Assembly: GCF_014698145.1 (NCBI RefSeq)
Contig: NZ_JACJSM010000027.1
Span: 1-64,000, forward strand
DNA: 64,000 nucleotides
Reading direction: 5' to 3'
Source of the DNA: Oscillatoria sp. FACHB-1406
GTDB lineage: Bacteria; Cyanobacteriota; Cyanobacteriia; Cyanobacteriales; Spirulinaceae
The notes beneath the pieces were generated by a model. That model saw only the letters and a list, made by a program, of their open reading frames with translations. It had not been told where the DNA came from and ran no database searches. This document shows positions 8,158 through 56,264 of this stretch, piece after piece (the first letter of the stretch is position 1; each line of letters opens with the position of its first letter). The position numbers were made by a program, and so were the translations under genes.

Positions 8158-9369
8158 ATGCTTATCCTTTCGTACCAATATAAGTTAGACCCAACAGCAG
8201 AACAGTCTGCCACTCTTGATGAGTGGCTAAATGTTTGTCGTTCGGTTTATAACTTTGCACTGAGAGAGCGAAAGGACTGGGTTAACTCCAGAAAGTGTCT
8301 AATCGACCGATGCGAACTTCGGTCTGAATACATCATCCCCGCTGACTCAAAACGTCCGACTTATGCCAGTCAGTGTAAATCTCTGACTCAGGCAAAGCAA
8401 ACCAACCCAAATCTTAAAGTCCCCCAATCTCAGGTCTTGCAGCAAACTCTAAAGCAAGTAGAGACTGCATTCGTAAATATGTGGGAAAGAGGATTTGGGT
8501 TTCCGCGTTTTAAAAAAGCGATGCGGTCGTTTGTATTCCCCCAAATTAAGTCGGACGCAGTAGAAAAAGATGAGATCGACCTTCCCAAGATTGGCAAGGT
8601 CAAATTTCACAACTCGCGAGATATCCCCGACGGTTTTACTTGCAAGCAAATCCGAGTCATCAAAAAAGCCAGTGGCTATTACGTCTCAGTTTCTATCGGG
8701 TGCGATGTAGACGTTCCAGCTATCAGTCCTCATGGCTATGCTATTGGGATCGATCTGGGACTCAACGATTTCATTGCTACCAGCGAAAACGAACTGATTA
8801 AAGGTCATCGATTCTTCGAGCGTTTTGAAGGCGAGCTTAAATTGCTGCAACGAAGACTGAAGAACAAGACTAAGGGTTCGAGGCGCTGGTTGAAAATTAA
8901 ACGCCAGATTGGGCTGCTCCACGAAAAGATACACAACTGCCGTAAAGACTTCTTTTTTAAGTTGGCTCATCGATTGTGCGATGGAGTAGGGATGATATTT
9001 GCTGAGGACTTGAACCTGAAAGCGCTCGGTCGCTCGGCTTTAAGAAAAGCTTGTCTGGACGCGGCATGGGGTTCGTTCTTGAATATTCTCAGTCATGTCT
9101 GCTGGAAGAGGGGTGTGTATTTTGCCAAAGTGGATGCCAGGGAGACAAGTCAGGTCTGTCCGAATTGCGGGACGAATTGTGGAAAGAAACCCCTAGCTCA
9201 AAGAGTCCATCATTGTGATAGTTGCGGCTATACCACAAATCGAGATGTGGCAGCCGCGCAAGTGGTGAAAGAAAGAGGATTAAATGCGGTCGGGCGGATC
9301 GCATTAACGCTCGTTGAGGGGAAAGATATCGGGGTTGGGGTCTATGCCCCTTCTAGAATCTCCCTATGA
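8158..9369 (+). CDS. tnpB: RNA-guided endonuclease TnpB, IS200/IS605 family
   Basis: TnpB is an RNA-guided, RuvC-like DNA endonuclease that helps retain IS605 elements at donor sites. The 403-residue protein looks complete. The RuvC acidic triad is visible as GIDLGLNDF (Asp near 200), FAEDLNL (Glu near 283) and TTNRDVAAA (Asp near 362). A four-cysteine zinc ribbon, CPNCG...CDSCG, lies at about 331-357. The N-terminal helix-turn-helix-like part contains RSVYNFALRER. The start ATG follows the left-end hairpin. It has no frameshift or stop, so it may be active. Confidence 0.93.
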   Translation: MLILSYQYKLDPTAEQSATLDEWLNVCRSVYNFALRERKDWVNSRKCLIDRCELRSEYIIPADSKRPTYASQCKSLTQAKQTNPNLKVPQSQVLQQTLKQVETAFVNMWERGFGFPRFKKAMRSFVFPQIKSDAVEKDEIDLPKIGKVKFHNSRDIPDGFTCKQIRVIKKASGYYVSVSIGCDVDVPAISPHGYAIGIDLGLNDFIATSENELIKGHRFFERFEGELKLLQRRLKNKTKGSRRWLKIKRQIGLLHEKIHNCRKDFFFKLAHRLCDGVGMIFAEDLNLKALGRSALRKACLDAAWGSFLNILSHVCWKRGVYFAKVDARETSQVCPNCGTNCGKKPLAQRVHHCDSCGYTTNRDVAAAQVVKERGLNAVGRIALTLVEGKDIGVGVYAPSRISL

Positions 9370-35012: not shown

Positions 35013-35150
35013 TTAGTCTAAATCAGCATTTTTTCTGTACTTTTCATCTAACCGTTTTTCTGCTTCCAACATTTGTTCATCTCGATTATCGATTAAACGA
35101 CTCAGATTGCCCAAAATAAGGAATAGCCCCATATTTACCTTTAAGATAAT
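35013..35150 (-). pseudogene. Possible frameshifted C-terminal tail of the adjacent ATPase
   Basis: After the ATPase frame stops at 35086, an overlapping minus-strand frame continues through ILGNLSRLIDNRDEQ and then a charged helix-like end, MLEAEKRLDEKYRKNADLD. Its composition looks coding. It overlaps the last ~20 codons of the ATPase in another frame and has no convincing start of its own. It could be the original C-terminus displaced by a frameshift, or chance. Confidence 0.3.
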
Positions 35151-36387
35151 CGTTTTTATAGGAAGCATCATTTCTAACCTTGAATTCTGCCAAAGAATAA
35201 AGATCGCTCGCTCCCTTGTTATCTTTCTCAATAAACCAAATTTGATCTCGCCTCAGAAGTTCGTTATCGAGTAAATTAGTATCGTGAGTCACAAAGATGA
35301 GTTGAGCATTCCCTGGATTACTTTGCTTGGAGTTGAATAGCTTAACAATTTCGCGAACAATTGCAGGATGAATGCGCGCGTCGAGTTCATCAATTAATAA
35401 GACTCCACCGTTCTGTAAGGCTAACAAAAAGGGAATCGCGAAGGCAAAAAGTTTTTTAGTTCCTTCGGATTCATGTTTATCGAGATCGAAGGTTACTGTT
35501 GCTATTACCTCTCCTTCGTCGTTATACTTTAAATGAAGAGTTTTAATTTGTTCTAGCTGTGCAGAGATAGAATTTTGAATCGATGCCAGAATTGCTTGCT
35601 TTGCCTCCTCCGTAAGATTACCGTTATAATTTTCTTCAATAGTATTATACAGACTGGGCTTAATTCTTATCGCTTCAATACCCAAGTCAAAACCCCTTAA
35701 AAAATCAGCGATATCAGATTGATATTTTGGATATTCTAAAACATAGTTAGTTGTTAGTAACTGATAATAGTTGCTTTTCAAGCCTGACAACACAACTGTC
35801 TCACGATCTAGCCAAAATAAAATTTTTTGCGATATCTTACCATTAAATTGAGCGGCAACGGAAAGAAACAAAGAGTTTTTTCTGGTTTTTTCTTCTAACC
35901 CTTTCCCTTCAGAAAACACTTTTGTCATTTCAAAGTCATTGAACTTCCGATTAAAAAGACAAGTTTCTTTCTTTTTAGGGATATGAAAAAGCCATTCAGA
36001 AATAACTCGCATGCGCTCGATCTCAAAACCATATCGATAGATTTTTTCCTCTAAAATAAAAACAAGCTCAAAAAACGAGGGTTGTGCTTCTGATTCCGTG
36101 CTAAGTTTAAACTTGTCTGTAGCAATTTCATCGGTAATTTGAGTTTCTCTAGAAGAATTGAGAATAAAATCTTTCATAAACTCAAAAGCTTGAATTAAAT
36201 TGCTTTTTCCGCTTGCATTGGCTCCATAAATGACGGCATTCTTTAGCAAGCTTAATTTATCGTCAACTTGAAAGACATTATTTTCGTCAACTTGCTCGTT
36301 TTTTGCCTTCAGATTTGTTGCAACCAGGCTGAGCGTGACGATTTCTTTGAACGAACGGTAGTTTCCGACACTAAATTCAATCAACAT
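35086..36387 (-). CDS. AAA ATPase of the ABC/OLD-like (AAA_15/AAA_21) class
   Basis: The 433-residue protein has an ABC-type ATPase head split by an insertion. The N-terminus IEFSVGNYRSFKE is followed by Walker A YGANASGKSN (about residues 52-61). Near the C-terminus GGVLLIDELDARIHP is Walker B, and LIFVTHDTNLLD carries the H-loop; SEGTKKLFA stands for the signature. Such proteins (RloA/OLD-like ATPases) often belong to phage-defence or DNA-repair gene pairs. No partner gene lies next to it. I start at the ATG at 36387 (MLIEFSVGN) because upstream residues do not fit the family. The region is A/T-richer than its surroundings, suggesting transfer. Confidence 0.85.
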   Translation of the reverse strand: MLIEFSVGNYRSFKEIVTLSLVATNLKAKNEQVDENNVFQVDDKLSLLKNAVIYGANASGKSNLIQAFEFMKDFILNSSRETQITDEIATDKFKLSTESEAQPSFFELVFILEEKIYRYGFEIERMRVISEWLFHIPKKKETCLFNRKFNDFEMTKVFSEGKGLEEKTRKNSLFLSVAAQFNGKISQKILFWLDRETVVLSGLKSNYYQLLTTNYVLEYPKYQSDIADFLRGFDLGIEAIRIKPSLYNTIEENYNGNLTEEAKQAILASIQNSISAQLEQIKTLHLKYNDEGEVIATVTFDLDKHESEGTKKLFAFAIPFLLALQNGGVLLIDELDARIHPAIVREIVKLFNSKQSNPGNAQLIFVTHDTNLLDNELLRRDQIWFIEKDNKGASDLYSLAEFKVRNDASYKNDYLKGKYGAIPYFGQSESFNR

Positions 36388-36697
36388 AGTTTGGTATAAA
36401 AAACCGTACATTTGAGATTTTTTCACAAATAACGCAGTTTTTGCGATCGCTTGTTTCAATTCTATACAAGCGCCACTGAGTAAAACAAACGTACTTTTTT
36501 GCAAGGCAAGCGAAGGGGCGAGAAGAAAACAGACGAACGATTAGCGATCGCGAACAACCCAGCAAGGTTGTAGTCGTTACAATAGCGATCGCGCTGATTA
36601 AAAGCGTTTATTGAGGTAACTGCTATCTTGCACGACGCTGCCTAAACCATAGAACGGGTACTGTTAACCGCTAACCGCTAACTGAATAACTGCTCCC
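36388..36697. other. Divergent intergenic region, ATPase / M20 amidohydrolase
   Basis: About 310 bp between divergent genes. It contains two HIP1-like sites (36543-36551 and 36580-36589) and a short direct repeat TAACCGCTAACCGCTAACTG (36664-36683) just ahead of the M20 gene. Both promoters should be here; none is assigned. Confidence 0.4.
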
Positions 36698-46414: not shown

Positions 46415-47806
46415 CTATCTCTGCAAAAAACCATCCTTGACCCAAGTCCGAAGTCCCGGCGCAAGGTTAATTGTTGTCGTACTTCCTAACCGACTCATTT
46501 CAAGCAGCGATCGCCGCCGCAAAGATTCGATAATGGTTAGGCTTTCCATTGCCGATAAGTTTAACACTTGACGCAAGGATGCGATCGCGACGGGGGTAGA
46601 TTGTTGTGAGAGGAAAGAGAGAGTGTGCTTTTCGGAATCGGTGAGGCGATCGTACAATCCGTTCAAACTCGCTAAAATTCCTTCACACAACCAACCGCCA
46701 AAGCTGACAAACTCCGCCGCATTGCCCCCAAACCATGTCTGCGTCGATCGCGCTGCTGCCTTCAACCAACCGGGATGTCCGCGATACACTTCAACCAGTT
46801 CGCTCCAAGCTTCCGGCGCGGTTAAGTTTTGTTCTTGCAGGAGGGCGAGGGCATCTTCTAAGTTTAAGCCGTTTAGAGTCCGCGATCGCGTCCGTTTGTA
46901 TTTTTCCTCCCAACTAACCCAATCGAGAGGCTGTTCCCGACTGGTAACAAGGATACAGCTTGGATGTCGCCCCCGCGCCGCGCGATCGAGCAAACTTGCA
47001 AAGTCCGCCATTTCCGCCCGCCAAGTTCCCGCCCAACTCCCTCCTAAAAAAGCTGCCTCCAATCCGTCGAGAATGAGGAGGCAGCGTTCGGTTTGCAGGC
47101 GATTGAATAGGCGATCTTGTGGGGGTTTGGGGCGGATAGGAGGTGGCGAACCCCGACTCAAAAGTTCGGCAATTTCGGCTGCGAGGGTATGGGGATCGGT
47201 ATCGGACGTTATGGTGCGCCAAATGACAGCAGAGAATTGGTTGGCAACGCGATCGACGAATTGGGCTGCTAAACTGCTTTTTCCCACCATCGGCAACCCC
47301 CACAATCCGATTAACCGACATTCCTCTTCAACCGTCCAGCGGGTGAGGGTTTCGAGAACATCCTCGCGTCCGATAAAGCCCTCTGTATCCGGCATTGTAT
47401 CGAAACTGCCGCGATCGCGCCAATCTTCTGAATCCGTGCTTTTAAAAGGGGCTTCTTGAGCCTCAGCGCAAAGATGATTATACGAGTGATTAATCGCGAC
47501 AATAATGCGGGAATTTGCCACATTCGAGTAAGTGGACTCGCCAGCAATATTCGTTATACGTTCCATTGCTGCCCGAAAACTCTTCTTCTCTATCGTTTCG
47601 CCCGTCACATCAGATAAAAGCCGCCAAACCGAAGCACCCACCTCTCTCACATAACCTTCCGTCCGCCTCACCTCTTCCGCAATCTCTGCGTAATGCTGAC
47701 CGTGCCACGAACCCCGCAGAATCGAGCGTTGTAGTTCATCAAGGTGCTTGCCCGTCTTCGCATAGACCAACTCATCCGTCAGCTTGACGACTAAATCCAC
47801 GCTCAT
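46415..47806 (-). CDS. NB-ARC/STAND NTPase with vMAP-type N-terminal helix-turn-helix
   Basis: The 463-residue protein starts with a domain typical of cyanobacterial vWA-MoxR-associated proteins (about residues 1-100, including LQRSILRGSWHGQHYAEIAE). An NB-ARC-type ATPase follows: Walker A LWGLPMVGKSSLA (about 168-180) and Walker B RCLLILDGLEA (about 240). LVTSREQP is the sensor, and GHPGWLKAAA is the GxP motif. A winged helix spans about 395-450. Unlike many relatives it has no C-terminal WD40 or TPR sensor array, so it is either minimal or truncated. Such proteins are proposed conflict/stress switches. The divergent neighbour is an unknown membrane protein. Confidence 0.85.
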   Translation of the reverse strand: MSVDLVVKLTDELVYAKTGKHLDELQRSILRGSWHGQHYAEIAEEVRRTEGYVREVGASVWRLLSDVTGETIEKKSFRAAMERITNIAGESTYSNVANSRIIVAINHSYNHLCAEAQEAPFKSTDSEDWRDRGSFDTMPDTEGFIGREDVLETLTRWTVEEECRLIGLWGLPMVGKSSLAAQFVDRVANQFSAVIWRTITSDTDPHTLAAEIAELLSRGSPPPIRPKPPQDRLFNRLQTERCLLILDGLEAAFLGGSWAGTWRAEMADFASLLDRAARGRHPSCILVTSREQPLDWVSWEEKYKRTRSRTLNGLNLEDALALLQEQNLTAPEAWSELVEVYRGHPGWLKAAARSTQTWFGGNAAEFVSFGGWLCEGILASLNGLYDRLTDSEKHTLSFLSQQSTPVAIASLRQVLNLSAMESLTIIESLRRRSLLEMSRLGSTTTINLAPGLRTWVKDGFLQR

Positions 47807-49337: not shown

Positions 49338-49715
49338 TTAAGTTGAAGAATTAAACCCTGCTAAAACTCGGTATTCTGGCGGAATCAAACCTCGTACAAT
49401 ATCTTCTTGAGGAATCCCTAAAGCAATTAACTCTTCTTCAATTTGACTTTCGGTTTGATTGCGTTGAATCCAAACTTTTTCATCTTGAATATCCAAATGA
49501 ATTAAAGCAACATATACTCGCTCTTGTCCGCGCCAGCCCAAGCTAAGGATTAAATATCGATCGGTTTGAAGATCGAATATTTGTTGCGTTTCAATTTCTT
49601 CGCGATCGCCAGAATACCCCACAAATTGCTTGAGAAATTGCATAACAACCTGACGATAGCGATCGCACTTCGTCGGGGGAACCTGTATTTGAACGTCGTT
49701 CGGATTTACAGCCAT
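49338..49715 (-). CDS. XisI family protein
   Basis: XisI is known from the Anabaena fdxN element, where it controls excision together with XisH and XisF; many cyanobacteria carry numerous copies outside that context. The 125-residue product has the family phrases YRQVVMQFLKQFVGYSGDRE, FDLQTDRYLILSLGWRGQER, WIQRNQTESQIEEELIALGI and DIVRGLIPPEYR. The start ATG at 49715 follows GAGGTGGGGA. No XisH gene is adjacent; in its usual place lie the remains of a PIN toxin. The function here is therefore unknown. Confidence 0.88.
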   Translation of the reverse strand: MAVNPNDVQIQVPPTKCDRYRQVVMQFLKQFVGYSGDREEIETQQIFDLQTDRYLILSLGWRGQERVYVALIHLDIQDEKVWIQRNQTESQIEEELIALGIPQEDIVRGLIPPEYRVLAGFNSST

Positions 49716-51257: not shown

Positions 51258-52778
51258 ATGCCCCGCATTCCCACAATCACCTACGATCGCGGTACTCTCT
51301 TACTCCATCCTCCCCCAAAAGGTCGAGCTTGGATCGATTATGCCCTGTGGGACGATCGCGTCGAGAAATTTCGCGTCCCCGGAATGCAATATCGCCCCCT
51401 CATCGAAGCGCTACAAGCCGAAGGGACACCCTTTGAAGACGAAGCCAAAGGATTCATTCCCCTCGAACTCGCCGCTAGTTTCGAGATGGAACCTTACCCC
51501 CACCAAGCGGAAGCCTTGCGCGCTTGGAAAGTCGCCGGACGCAAGGGGGTTGTCGTTTTGCCGACAGCGGCGGGAAAAACCTATCTGGCGCAACTGGCGA
51601 TTCAATCGACGCAGCGCAGCACCCTCATCGTCGTCCCTACCCTCGATTTAATGCACCAATGGTACGCGCAGATGGAAGCAGCCTTTCCCGATGTAGAATT
51701 GGGGTTATTAGGGGGAGGATCGCGCGATCGCACCCCGCTGCTGATTTCCACCTACAACAGCGCCGCTATCCAAGCAGAAACCCTCGGCAACCGCTACGCC
51801 CTCATCGTTTTCGATGAATGCCACCACCTCCCCACCGACTTCTTCCGCGTCATCGCTGAATTCGCGATCGCTCCCTACCGCCTCGGACTCACCGCCACTC
51901 CCGAACGCTCCGATGGCTCCCACCGCGACTTAGAAGGACTTGTCGGAGCCGTCATTTATCGCAAAACCCCTGAAGAACTCTCCGGAAGCGCCCTCGCTCA
52001 ACATCGCGTCGTCCAAATCAAAGTCAAACTTTCCCCAAAAGAGCGCGAAACTTACGACAGCGCCATGAAACTCCGCAACGAGTTTTTGCGGCAAAATCGC
52101 ATAGCCCTCAGCAGTCTTGATGGTTGGCAGCATTTCGTGCAAGCGTCCGCCCGTTCCCCAGAAGGACGTAGAGCAATGCTCGCTCATCGCGAAGCCAAAG
52201 AAATTGCCCTCTGCACCGATGGAAAGTTGCGGGTTCTTGCCGATTTAATCGCCCAACATTACCCCGAACCAATCCTTGTTTTTACGAACGATAATGCAAC
52301 CGTATATCGCATTTCCCAAGAATTTTTAATTCCGGCGATTACCCATCAAACGCCGGTAAAAGAACGGCACGATATTTTAACCCGGTTTAAGGAAGGAGAT
52401 TATAAAGTTATTGCGGCTTCCCACGTTCTTAATGAAGGCGTTGATGTTCCCGACGCGCGCATTGCTGTTATTCTCTCCGGTACGGGTTCGACGCGGGAAT
52501 ACGTGCAACGTTTGGGGCGCGTTTTAAGGAAGGGAACGCAAGAAAATAAGTTTGCGCTGTTATATGAAGTGGTTACTGAAGATACGAGCGAAGAACGGAC
52601 TTCCGAACGCCGACGCGGAGAGAGCGAATATGGGAAACCGTCTAAGCAAAAATCGAAGCAGGAAGCAGAACAATTAGAGATTATTCCTTCTCCTTATCGT
52701 CAAAAACCGGCTCCTATTCCGAAAGCTGCTGAACCCAAAAAAACTTGGGGAGAGCGCAATTTTCCAAATATCGAATAA
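51258..52778 (+). CDS. XPB/Ssl2-like DEAD/H-box helicase
   Basis: This superfamily 2 helicase is related to XPB and bacterial XPB-like enzymes implicated in repair. The 506 residues have an N-terminal damage-recognition-like region (about 1-85) and Walker A LPTAAGKTYLA (about 101-111). They also have a DECH box (IVFDECHHLP, about 183-192), motif III LTATPERSDG, and motif VI YVQRLGRVLRKG (about 415-426). A Lys/Glu-rich tail ends KTWGERNFPNIE. In archaea and many bacteria XPB is paired with a Bax1/DUF790 nuclease; no such gene is adjacent. It is followed 87 bp later by the RecQ-PRTase gene on the same strand. Confidence 0.9.
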   Translation: MPRIPTITYDRGTLLLHPPPKGRAWIDYALWDDRVEKFRVPGMQYRPLIEALQAEGTPFEDEAKGFIPLELAASFEMEPYPHQAEALRAWKVAGRKGVVVLPTAAGKTYLAQLAIQSTQRSTLIVVPTLDLMHQWYAQMEAAFPDVELGLLGGGSRDRTPLLISTYNSAAIQAETLGNRYALIVFDECHHLPTDFFRVIAEFAIAPYRLGLTATPERSDGSHRDLEGLVGAVIYRKTPEELSGSALAQHRVVQIKVKLSPKERETYDSAMKLRNEFLRQNRIALSSLDGWQHFVQASARSPEGRRAMLAHREAKEIALCTDGKLRVLADLIAQHYPEPILVFTNDNATVYRISQEFLIPAITHQTPVKERHDILTRFKEGDYKVIAASHVLNEGVDVPDARIAVILSGTGSTREYVQRLGRVLRKGTQENKFALLYEVVTEDTSEERTSERRRGESEYGKPSKQKSKQEAEQLEIIPSPYRQKPAPIPKAAEPKKTWGERNFPNIE

Positions 52779-52865: not shown

Positions 52866-54971
52866 ATGATGTCCGATCTGCACAATCAGGGTTTGTCACT
52901 TCTTCGTACCGCACTTAACGATCCGGAAGCAAATTTTCGCGATGGGCAGTGGGACGCGATTTCGCAATTATTAAATCCTGGAACGCGCCTACTTGCGGTG
53001 CAGCGAACGGGCTGGGGAAAAAGCCTAATTTATTTTCTAACAACGCGACTTCTACGCGATCGCGATCGAGGAATCACACTTATTATTTCGCCCCTCCTCG
53101 CTCTAATGCGAAATCAAATTTCAGCCGCTCAACGTCTCGGACTTCAAGCTGAAACGATTAACTCGACTAACCCAGAAGCGTGGGAAATTATTCAACAACG
53201 ATTGCTTCTAGATACAATCGATCTACTCCTCATCTCGCCAGAACGTTTAGCAAACAATAATTTTCGAGAAGAAATTCTTTTACCGCTGTCGGCTCGAATC
53301 GGCTTTCTTGTCGTCGATGAAGCCCACTGTATTTCCGATTGGGGGCATGACTTTCGTCCCGATTATCGAAGAATCGTCCGCATCCTTCAAGCCCTTCCTA
53401 AAACGATCCCCGTTCTCGCAACAACTGCTACCGCTAATAATCGCGTTATCCAAGATATTCGCGCTCAACTCGGTTCTGAATTAAAAATCGCGAGAGGAAC
53501 GCTAGCTAGAGAAAGTCTTTGCTTGCAAAATATTTCCCTTCCCTGCCAAGAAGCTAAACTAGCTTGGTTAGCTGAGCAGATTCCCAACTTGCCGGGAAGT
53601 GGTATTATCTATGCCCTAACCGTTCGAGATTCAGAACAAGTTGCAGAGTGGCTAAAGATACAAAACATCGATGCCGAATCCTACTCCGCACAAGTCCCCG
53701 GCGAACAGCGAGAAATTTTAGAGCAAAGATTGTTAAACAATCAAATTAAAGCATTAGTTGCAACCTCAGCTTTAAGTATGGGATTTGATAAGCCGGATCT
53801 CGGTTTTGTCATCCACTATCAACGTCCGGGTTCCGTCGTTCACTACTATCAACAAGTCGGACGGGCAGGCAGAGCCGTATTGAGGGCTTATGGTATCTTA
53901 TTAAGCGGGAATGAAGACCAAGAAATCACAAATTATTTTATCGAATCTGCCTTTCCTCCAGAAAACCACATTAAGGAAATCTTAGATGTTCTCGCTCGCG
54001 GAACAAACGGACTCTCTCTTCCACAACTAGAAACTCAGTTAAATATTCCGCGAGGAAAAATCGAAAAAGCGTTAAAATTTCTTTCCTTAGAATCGCCGGC
54101 TCCGATCGCGAAAATTGAGAGGCTATGGTATCTCGCACCGATTGACTATAAAATCGATCGCGAGAAAATCGAGCGGCTGACTGAAATCCGCAAGCAAGAA
54201 CAAGCTCGAATGCTCGACTACATCAATGTGCGCAGTTGCTTAATGAAATTTTTAGCTAGAGAATTAGACGATCCGACGACAACAGAATGCGGACGCTGTA
54301 CAGTTTGTCTGGGAAAATCTCTGCTCCCAGAAACCTATACTTTAGAAAAAGCTGGAGAGGCCGTCGCTTTTTTACGCAGAAAGAGTTATCTTATCGAACC
54401 GCGCAAAAAATGGGCAGCGAGTGGACTGCTGTCTCATAATTGGAAAGCAAATACCAAAATTCCTCCGCATTTACAAGCCGAACCCGGTCGTACTTTATCG
54501 CTTTGGGGGGATGCAGGTTGGGGGACTTTAGTCAAGCAAAATAAATATCGAGATGAATATTTTAGCGATACTTTAGTCAACGCAGTCGTTGAATCAATCC
54601 AACGCTGGCAAATCGATCCATTTCCCACTTGGATAACTTGTATTCCTTCACTAACTCGACCTGAATTAGTTCCTAACTTTTGCGAACGCTTAGCTCGCGA
54701 ACTTAACATTCCTTTTGTTCCCTGCGTCCAAAAAAATTATCAAAATCGTCCCCAAAAAGAGATGCAGAATAGTTCGCAGCAAGTCCATAATTTAGATGGA
54801 GTCTTTAGGATCGATTGCTGGCAAGGAATGGCAGGGGATGTTTTCTTAATTGACGATATGGTTGATTCTCGCTGGACTTTTACCGTCGTTGCTGCTTTAT
54901 TAAGACAATCTGGAAGCGGTAAAGTGTTTCCCTTTGCGCTTGCTCTTAACTCACTCGGTCAGGGAGAATAA
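52866..54971 (+). CDS. RecQ-family helicase fused to a C-terminal phosphoribosyltransferase domain
   Basis: The 701-residue protein begins with a RecQ helicase: Walker A VQRTGWGKSLIYF (about 44-56), DEAH in VVDEAHCISDWGHDFRPDYR (about 149-168) and motif VI YYQQVGRAGRA. A zinc-binding subdomain with CGRCTVC is near 475-481. After a winged-helix-like part, the last ~150 residues form a type I phosphoribosyltransferase (PRTase)-like domain. Its PRPP-loop-like motif is DVFLIDDMVDSRWTFTVV (about 657-674), with the paired acidic residues kept. The stop is immediately followed by the ATG of the dprA-like gene, so the two are coupled. It may process foreign DNA, but its reaction is not known. Confidence 0.88.
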   Translation: MMSDLHNQGLSLLRTALNDPEANFRDGQWDAISQLLNPGTRLLAVQRTGWGKSLIYFLTTRLLRDRDRGITLIISPLLALMRNQISAAQRLGLQAETINSTNPEAWEIIQQRLLLDTIDLLLISPERLANNNFREEILLPLSARIGFLVVDEAHCISDWGHDFRPDYRRIVRILQALPKTIPVLATTATANNRVIQDIRAQLGSELKIARGTLARESLCLQNISLPCQEAKLAWLAEQIPNLPGSGIIYALTVRDSEQVAEWLKIQNIDAESYSAQVPGEQREILEQRLLNNQIKALVATSALSMGFDKPDLGFVIHYQRPGSVVHYYQQVGRAGRAVLRAYGILLSGNEDQEITNYFIESAFPPENHIKEILDVLARGTNGLSLPQLETQLNIPRGKIEKALKFLSLESPAPIAKIERLWYLAPIDYKIDREKIERLTEIRKQEQARMLDYINVRSCLMKFLARELDDPTTTECGRCTVCLGKSLLPETYTLEKAGEAVAFLRRKSYLIEPRKKWAASGLLSHNWKANTKIPPHLQAEPGRTLSLWGDAGWGTLVKQNKYRDEYFSDTLVNAVVESIQRWQIDPFPTWITCIPSLTRPELVPNFCERLARELNIPFVPCVQKNYQNRPQKEMQNSSQQVHNLDGVFRIDCWQGMAGDVFLIDDMVDSRWTFTVVAALLRQSGSGKVFPFALALNSLGQGE

Positions 54972-56264
54972 ATGGCAACACTAACACATATTTTAAAACC
55001 CGATGCCCAAGCGATTCTGCTCCTATGTGCGAGTTTTGGACAAACTCGGCAAGCAGAACCCATTCCTTTAAATTTGGGAGAATATAACCTTCTAGCTCGA
55101 AAGTTACAGCAAGAAGGTTTACGTCCCGGCGACTTGCTCGCTAGCGATAGAAAAAGTTTGATATTAAGTGCGAGCGGTGAGGATCTCAATTCACAAAGAA
55201 TTCTTCAACTATTAGAACGAGGGGCAATGTTAGCGATTGCTGTTGAAGATTGGACGAATAAGGGATTGTGGATTTTAAGTCGTAGCGATGAAGCGTATCC
55301 GCAGCGACTCAAGCGTAAATTAAAACAACAGTCTCCTCCCATTTTATATGGCGTAGGAAACCAAGATTTATTAGCAAGAGGAGGTTTGGCGATTGTTGGC
55401 TCTCGGAATATTGACGATGATGGCCTTAGCTATACGAAACGAATTGCAGAAAAGTGTGCAGAACAAGGAATTCAAGTAATTTCTGGAGGTGCTAGGGGGG
55501 TTGACCAAACGGCAATGCTATCAGCAATTTCGGCGGGAGGAACTTCGGTTGGAGTTCTCGCAGATAGTTTAATGAAAGCAGCAGTTTCTCTCAAATACCG
55601 TCAAGGATTGTGCGAAGGACGAGTTGCTTTGATTTCGCCATACGATCCGGCTGCGGGTTTTAATGTAGGAAATGCAATGAATCGCAATAAGCACGTTTAT
55701 GGATTAGCCGATCGCGTATTAGTTGTTGATTCTTCTTATCAAAAAGGGGGAACTTGGGCGGGAGCAAAGGAGGAGTTAAAACGAGAGATTCGGATTCCGG
55801 TTTGGGTGCGAGTCGATCGTAAAAAACTGCCTGGAAACCAGGGATTGATCGAGCTAGGAGCGTTCCCTTTTCCCGCAGAACCGTGGAATCGCGATATTTT
55901 AACAATGGTTGCAGAGAGCGAACAGTTATCTCGATCGCAGTCCCCCGCAAGGGTGGCGAAACAATTAAGTTTAAATGATCTAGAAATTATTGAAGAAAAA
56001 TCGAATGCTACGCTCGATCGCCAAAATAAAGAAAGCAAGATTAAATTGCCAAAAGATGCGTATGAGGCGATTCTCCCGTTACTGCTGTATCATTTAACTC
56101 AGCCCCGAGAGGATAATGAAGTTGCAGTATTGTTAGATGTGGCTATCGGTCAGACAAGAAGTTGGTTAAAGAAAGCCGTAGCTGAGAAGCTAGTGAAAAA
56201 AACGAAAAATGTTTATGTCTCGCTCGAGGGCGAGGAGCAGTTAAAGTTGCTGTCTTTAAATTAG
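54972..56264 (+). CDS. DprA/Smf-family DNA-processing protein
   Basis: The 430-residue protein has an extended Rossmann fold of the DprA type: ILYGVGNQDLLARGGLAIVGSRN (about 122-144), VISGGARGVDQTAM (about 169-182) and GGTWAGAKEEL (about 262-272). Classical DprA has a His after the GVD motif (GIDAAAH); here Met occupies that position. The N-terminal ~110 residues and a C-terminal winged-helix-like tail (about 350-430) complete it. DprA loads RecA on incoming single strands in competence, but DprA homologues paired with PRTase proteins also form toxin-antitoxin/defence modules (ShosTA type). It starts directly at the stop of the RecQ-PRTase gene, which favours the second role. Confidence 0.88.
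   Translation: MATLTHILKPDAQAILLLCASFGQTRQAEPIPLNLGEYNLLARKLQQEGLRPGDLLASDRKSLILSASGEDLNSQRILQLLERGAMLAIAVEDWTNKGLWILSRSDEAYPQRLKRKLKQQSPPILYGVGNQDLLARGGLAIVGSRNIDDDGLSYTKRIAEKCAEQGIQVISGGARGVDQTAMLSAISAGGTSVGVLADSLMKAAVSLKYRQGLCEGRVALISPYDPAAGFNVGNAMNRNKHVYGLADRVLVVDSSYQKGGTWAGAKEELKREIRIPVWVRVDRKKLPGNQGLIELGAFPFPAEPWNRDILTMVAESEQLSRSQSPARVAKQLSLNDLEIIEEKSNATLDRQNKESKIKLPKDAYEAILPLLLYHLTQPREDNEVAVLLDVAIGQTRSWLKKAVAEKLVKKTKNVYVSLEGEEQLKLLSLN

Follow-up and report, generated by a model that had tools for sequence, protein, structure and literature searches.

Shotgun cloning brought PsyrTA to light in Pseudomonas syringae (Sberro et al. 2013, as cited in PMC8790059 and PMC9122126), and a study of extraintestinal Escherichia coli dealt with this pair under the name RqlHI (Russell and Mulvey 2015, PMC4670107). 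RqlH carries a C-terminal phosphoribosyltransferase (PRTase) domain, and deletion of this domain or mutation of the PRPP pocket abolished both growth inhibition and SOS induction; mutation in the DIVD segment of E. coli RqlH likewise abolished growth inhibition (PMC4670107). RqlI co-precipitates with RqlH only when the PRTase is present, and P. syringae PsyrT is toxic without PsyrA, as relayed by the same paper (PMC4670107). The model put forward in 2015 has the PRTase alter a nucleotide while the DprA-like partner restrains or resolves, a two-step scheme of modification and resolution, and a cyanobacterial example, from Trichodesmium erythraeum, was already included (PMC4670107). Later work grouped shosTA, P. 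syringae syrTA and rqlHI as systems with DprA-type antitoxins (PMC9122126), and PsyrTA has been listed as an abortive infection system (PMC10855318).

We analysed a locus in Oscillatoria sp. FACHB-1406, within a window comprising the whole 64,000-nucleotide stretch of DNA. An earlier note on this DNA had described two open reading frames, 52866-54971 (701 aa) and 54972-56264 (430 aa), with the stop codon of one abutting the ATG of the other, and these lie exactly as claimed. Judged by sequence, the pair is a standard full-length copy of PsyrTA (RqlHI), a family already described. The features that define membership were found together: both proteins match the curated PsyrT and PsyrA models full length (PADLOC; PsyrT residues 6-696 of 701 on profile positions 5-685 of 689, E = 8.4e-288; PsyrA residues 8-413 of 430 on positions 3-391 of 398, E = 6.2e-135), Walker A and DEAH are intact in PsyrT, a PRTase domain with the loop DDxVDS sits on the helicase polypeptide, and the toxin gene comes first with the DprA-like gene adjoining it downstream. 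The features are as follows.

51258-52778, plus strand: XPB-type helicase with a damage-recognition domain, 87 bp upstream of psyrT
52866..54971, plus strand: psyrT, 701 aa, RecQ-type helicase with a C-terminal PRTase domain, predicted toxin
53007..53024, plus strand: Walker A motif TGWGKS, residues 48-53, kept in 27 of 27 aligned sequences
53316..53327, plus strand: DEAH box, residues 151-154
54237..54308, plus strand: RecQ-type four-Cys zinc cluster, Cys 458, 475, 478 and 481
54366..54953, plus strand: predicted PRTase domain, about residues 501-696, from the AlphaFold2 model and structural alignment
54840..54878, plus strand: PRPP-binding loop VFLIDDMVDSRWT, residues 659-671
54961..54966, plus strand: Shine-Dalgarno-like AGGGAG, within the psyrT end, 5 nt before the psyrA ATG
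54972..56264, plus strand: psyrA, 430 aa, DprA-like (SLOG/Rossmann), predicted antitoxin
55254..55865, plus strand: DprA-like Rossmann domain of PsyrA, containing SGGARGVDQTAM, with Met for His
56049..56225, plus strand: C-terminal winged-helix-like domain of PsyrA, helices 363-404 and wing 408-417, from the model secondary structure

PsyrT passed the RecQ-family cut-off (TIGR00614), with residues 22-358 forming a RecQ-family helicase, and failed the test for canonical RecQ (equivalog TIGR01389, 284.9 bits versus a cut-off of 640.2); a separate canonical RecQ is encoded elsewhere in the host genome (G000:C33). The QQVGRAGR helicase motif is intact (residues 329-336), and residues 435-482 gave a sub-threshold match to RecQ_Zn_bind (PF16124). 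A copy on an E. coli plasmid is 52% identical over 98%. A single-protein search of genome contigs returned one weak match (L033, 22% identity over residues 558-694), and a search of a phage collection found no full-length PsyrT, with partial matches to the helicase part only.

The PRTase-like C-terminal domain proposed in the earlier note was borne out when the structure was predicted and compared with PRTases. Sequence-profile searches of the PDB with this domain gave weak matches to PRPP enzymes only (best E 0.0036). An AlphaFold2 model of residues 467-701, built from an input alignment of cyanobacterial whole-genome rows only (plasmid rows were left out), had a moderate mean pLDDT of 65.6, with most blocks at model residues 100-225 scoring 75-95. 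Structural alignment with VIA-align placed ComF on top (7p0h, Z 12.8), and further matches were ShosT with PRPP-Mg (8zvc, Z 10.6 over 174 residues at 10% identity) and PurF (1ecb, Z 9.3). On the evidence of this model, the C-terminal domain of PsyrT has a PRTase fold. The VFLIDDMVDSRWT loop is almost invariant across the family, reading SRWT in all cyanobacterial copies and SGWT in the two gammaproteobacterial plasmid copies, and the PRPP loop, Walker A and DEAH are all kept in paired homologues. The DIVD segment of E. coli RqlH corresponds to this loop, mapped as a segment and not to residue D663.

In PsyrA, an N-terminal region precedes a DprA Rossmann domain, and a winged-helix-like domain forms the C-terminus (AlphaFold model, moderate mean pLDDT of 62.9); a C-terminal HTH is present in RqlI too (PMC4670107). 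It matched Pfam DNA_processg_A (1.3e-38) and failed the test for canonical competence DprA (equivalog TIGR00732, 96.7 bits versus a cut-off of 191.15). The canonical DprA of the host is encoded separately, is 29% identical to PsyrA and has the normal His. The replacement of this His by Met, pointed out in the earlier note, is real (SGGARGVDQTAM in PsyrA versus SGLALGIDTEAH in the host canonical DprA); Met occurs in 19 of 20 aligned sequences and Ile in the other, and on this alignment Met for His is a family trait and no peculiarity of FACHB-1406 psyrA. Profile matches of PsyrA in the PDB comprised DprA, ShosA and molybdenum-cofactor carrier proteins, the last of which explains the MoCo annotation of RqlI. 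The psyrA ATG at 54972 directly follows the psyrT TAA (54969-54971) on the same strand, and the arrangement, with its Shine-Dalgarno-like site, makes translational coupling of the two genes likely. Promoter and terminator scans at the locus were near chance level.

Downstream of psyrA lie genes for a histidine phosphatase, EF-Ts and ribosomal protein S2. The earlier note's placing of the pair among other conflict genes held up weakly: the immediate neighbours are the XPB-like helicase and the three downstream genes, and the nearest other clear defence candidate, an AbiLi-like ATPase, is about 16 kb away. This AAA_21-type ATPase (35089-36504, minus strand; PADLOC AbiLi, 5.6e-105) is a possible second defence gene. 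Together with a 463-aa protein bearing a STAND-type NB-ARC/NACHT-like NTPase domain (46418-47806, minus strand; no PADLOC match), it makes up the only other defence candidates nearby, and there is no dense defence island. The window also contains an insertion element gene, an intact-looking IS605-type TnpB/OrfB with Cas12f-like matches (8158-9366, plus strand), and a gene for an XisI-family protein (49341-49715, minus strand).

We surveyed 196 genomes from the host's own family (Spirulinaceae) and order. Intact or near-intact psyrT was present in 21 of them, and the neighbourhood search proposed in the earlier note, for a helicase-PRTase beside a DprA-like gene, found all 21 paired with psyrA. 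Within the family, psyrTA occurred in 1 of 13 genomes, FACHB-1406 alone. Seven genomes had psyrA without intact psyrT, four of them with psyrT debris (G120, G133, G135 and G184), and no intact psyrT without psyrA was found among the 196 cyanobacterial genomes. This 7-to-0 imbalance in favour of solo antitoxins gives p = 0.016 if the cases are independent, and with three of the seven in one genus independence is incomplete. The pattern is as expected when the toxin is lost first and, given the small counts, is supportive but not proof; the patchy presence of the pair, with psyrA beside every intact psyrT and sometimes kept without one, fits a horizontally moving toxin-antitoxin module. Decayed psyrT was observed beside or near psyrA in cyanobacterial loci L025, L064, L044 and L024, in the form of internal deletions, frameshifts and C-terminal remnants.

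The G+C content of psyrTA was 44.1%, versus 52.6% for the upstream and 50.0% for the downstream gene, which is low yet not extreme for the window. In two same-genus genomes, G163 and G021, the psyrTA copies were 75% and 56% identical to that of FACHB-1406, whereas XPB was equally distant in both (68% and 67%). Patchy presence, lower G+C and the disagreement between the similarity orders of psyrTA and XPB argue for horizontal spread. The same gene order recurs on plasmids, in E. coli inside a type I restriction operon, in Acinetobacter directly after BREX pglX and in Nostoc near parAB. Together, the plasmid copies, G+C and similarity order point to horizontal transfer and defence-type company. 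An empty site was sought in the same family, where the flanking genes are non-adjacent in relatives and gave no clean insertion boundary.

Two plasmids, one from Arthrobacter and one haloarchaeal, carry solo helicase-PRTase copies. The Arthrobacter copy retains the PRPP loop, and the 2015 survey found RqlH-bearing bacteria to be mostly without RqlI (55.3% solo; PMC4670107); a helicase-PRTase is therefore not necessarily a toxin in every case. The haloarchaeal copy (L037, 2935-5016) has the loop DDTVGS, with Gly for the last Asp of the DIVD segment, and the stretch examined revealed no DprA-like partner. On Sinorhizobium meliloti pSymB (L038, 5070-6370), the psyrA frame is apparently split in two beside a full-length psyrT, reflecting perhaps a sequencing error, perhaps decay of the antitoxin.

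Taking these data with those on orthologues, we consider the locus very probably a cyanobacterial PsyrTA (RqlHI) toxin-antitoxin module, probably an abortive-infection type of defence, with the toxicity and protection of the FACHB-1406 copy proposed by analogy. Our analysis contributes the architecture, motifs, fold, coupled order and one-way toxin loss; PRTase-dependent toxicity, and binding and suppression by the partner, were shown in orthologues and would carry over from them. The assignment of toxin and antitoxin roles in the earlier note gains support from the PsyrT and PsyrA model matches and from the orthologue data (PMC4670107), and its mechanism is close to the model published in 2015 (PMC4670107). 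PsyrT is a RecQ-type helicase that bears a predicted PRTase toxin domain and, judging from an orthologue, would work in the 3'-5' direction, and PsyrA, made from the same coupled message, would bind this domain and hold the toxin off. Should some event such as phage replication or DNA damage disturb this balance, the helicase may bring the PRTase to DNA, where a nucleotide or DNA base would be modified or PRPP diverted. The resulting DNA damage would stop growth before the phage multiplies, and the FACHB-1406 copy may in this way protect against phage. The defence role is not to be taken for granted, because for one native E. coli PsyrTA, expressed in K-12, no protection from the phages used could be detected, although its expression slowed growth (PMC12409345). 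A more specific version, in which the tethered PRTase adds phosphoribosyl directly to bases in helicase-exposed single strands, with phage genomes as the target in the case of cyanobacterial PsyrTA, strikes us as rather doubtful; direct base modification was proposed in outline already in 2015 (PMC4670107).

Other roles can be envisaged for a RecQ-type helicase beside a DprA-like protein. DprA and ComF-type PRTases occur in competence pathways, and with ComF as the top structural match one might read the pair as an ordinary competence or recombination locus in which RecQ and DprA serve natural transformation. We regard this as very improbable, since the genome separately encodes a canonical RecQ and a canonical DprA (the one 29% identical to PsyrA, with the normal His), and only 21 of the 196 genomes surveyed, including a single one of the 13 from the family, carry the pair; this patchy distribution and the separate canonical genes exclude the universal competence locus that the earlier note had named as its counter-case. 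Somewhat less improbable, but still unlikely, is a helicase unit for DNA repair, with PsyrA as a positive partner instead of an antitoxin and with the PRTase serving normal cells by resolving or salvaging damaged nucleotides. Actinobacterial solo helicase-PRTases in housekeeping surroundings retain the PRPP loop, and the E. coli model too has two steps of modification and resolution (PMC4670107). However, cyanobacterial psyrT was never found intact without psyrA among the 196 genomes while the reverse was seen with toxin debris, copies sit within restriction and BREX operons, and an orthologue is genotoxic without its partner (PMC4670107).

The gene upstream invites a further grouping, in which the XPB-like helicase (51258-52778) and psyrTA form a three-gene helicase system: it lies on the same strand 87 bp away, and XPB-type helicases resemble the PbeA defence helicase models (PADLOC). 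Yet 12 of 13 family genomes have XPB, 11 of them others without psyrTA, and the XPB gene has a higher G+C and was not found beside other psyrTA loci within the flanks of 1.5 kb or larger that were examined, so that we give such a system hardly any credence. An XPB-psyrTA helicase triad as a conserved association is refuted by the family distribution and the flanks of other loci. The distribution indicates that the XPB-like helicase is vertically inherited and unrelated to psyrTA.

We return to psyrTA as a two-gene toxin-antitoxin module. The pair is real and intact, but it is no new kind of system, its family being already known, and the FACHB-1406 locus is one more intact cyanobacterial copy whose value is that of a test case. 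The intact pairs, orphan antitoxins and decayed toxins of cyanobacteria are good material for studying PRTase function and the tolerance of actinobacteria without an antitoxin. The chemistry of the PRTase is a question that this locus has in common with the whole family.

Among known systems, PsyrTA of P. syringae (a PADLOC and DefenseFinder system) has the same two proteins in the same order, with host phylum the sole difference and the architecture alike. RqlHI of E. coli likewise has a RecQ-like helicase with a C-terminal PRTase upstream of a DprA/MoCo-like/HTH protein and shares PRPP-loop residues, the E. coli plasmid copy reading DDIVDSGWT versus DDMVDSRWT in FACHB-1406. RqlH (SftH) of Mycobacterium smegmatis, MSMEG_5935, is also a helicase-PRTase fusion, reported via PMC4670107 to be active in the 3'-5' direction; unlike FACHB-1406 psyrT, it is a solo gene without a DprA-like partner. 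DarT is a DNA-modifying toxin, a logic comparable to that of the proposed base-modifying PsyrT. ShosTA of E. coli (PDB 8zvc, 8zvb, 8zva and 9vzo) again combines a PRTase toxin with a DprA-like antitoxin, and the parallel drawn in the earlier note is sound, in that the PRTase aligns to ShosT (Z 10.6) and PsyrA also matches the ShosA model (PADLOC, 7.9e-30). A new ShosTA variant was considered and rejected, the PsyrTA models fitting far better (PADLOC). Sequence similarity to ShosTA is low, and membership there goes with a PRTase toxin without a RecQ helicase, whereas PsyrT is a fusion to one; the tethering of PRTase to helicase, which the earlier note took for an unusual variant, is instead the architecture that defines the known PsyrTA/RqlHI family.
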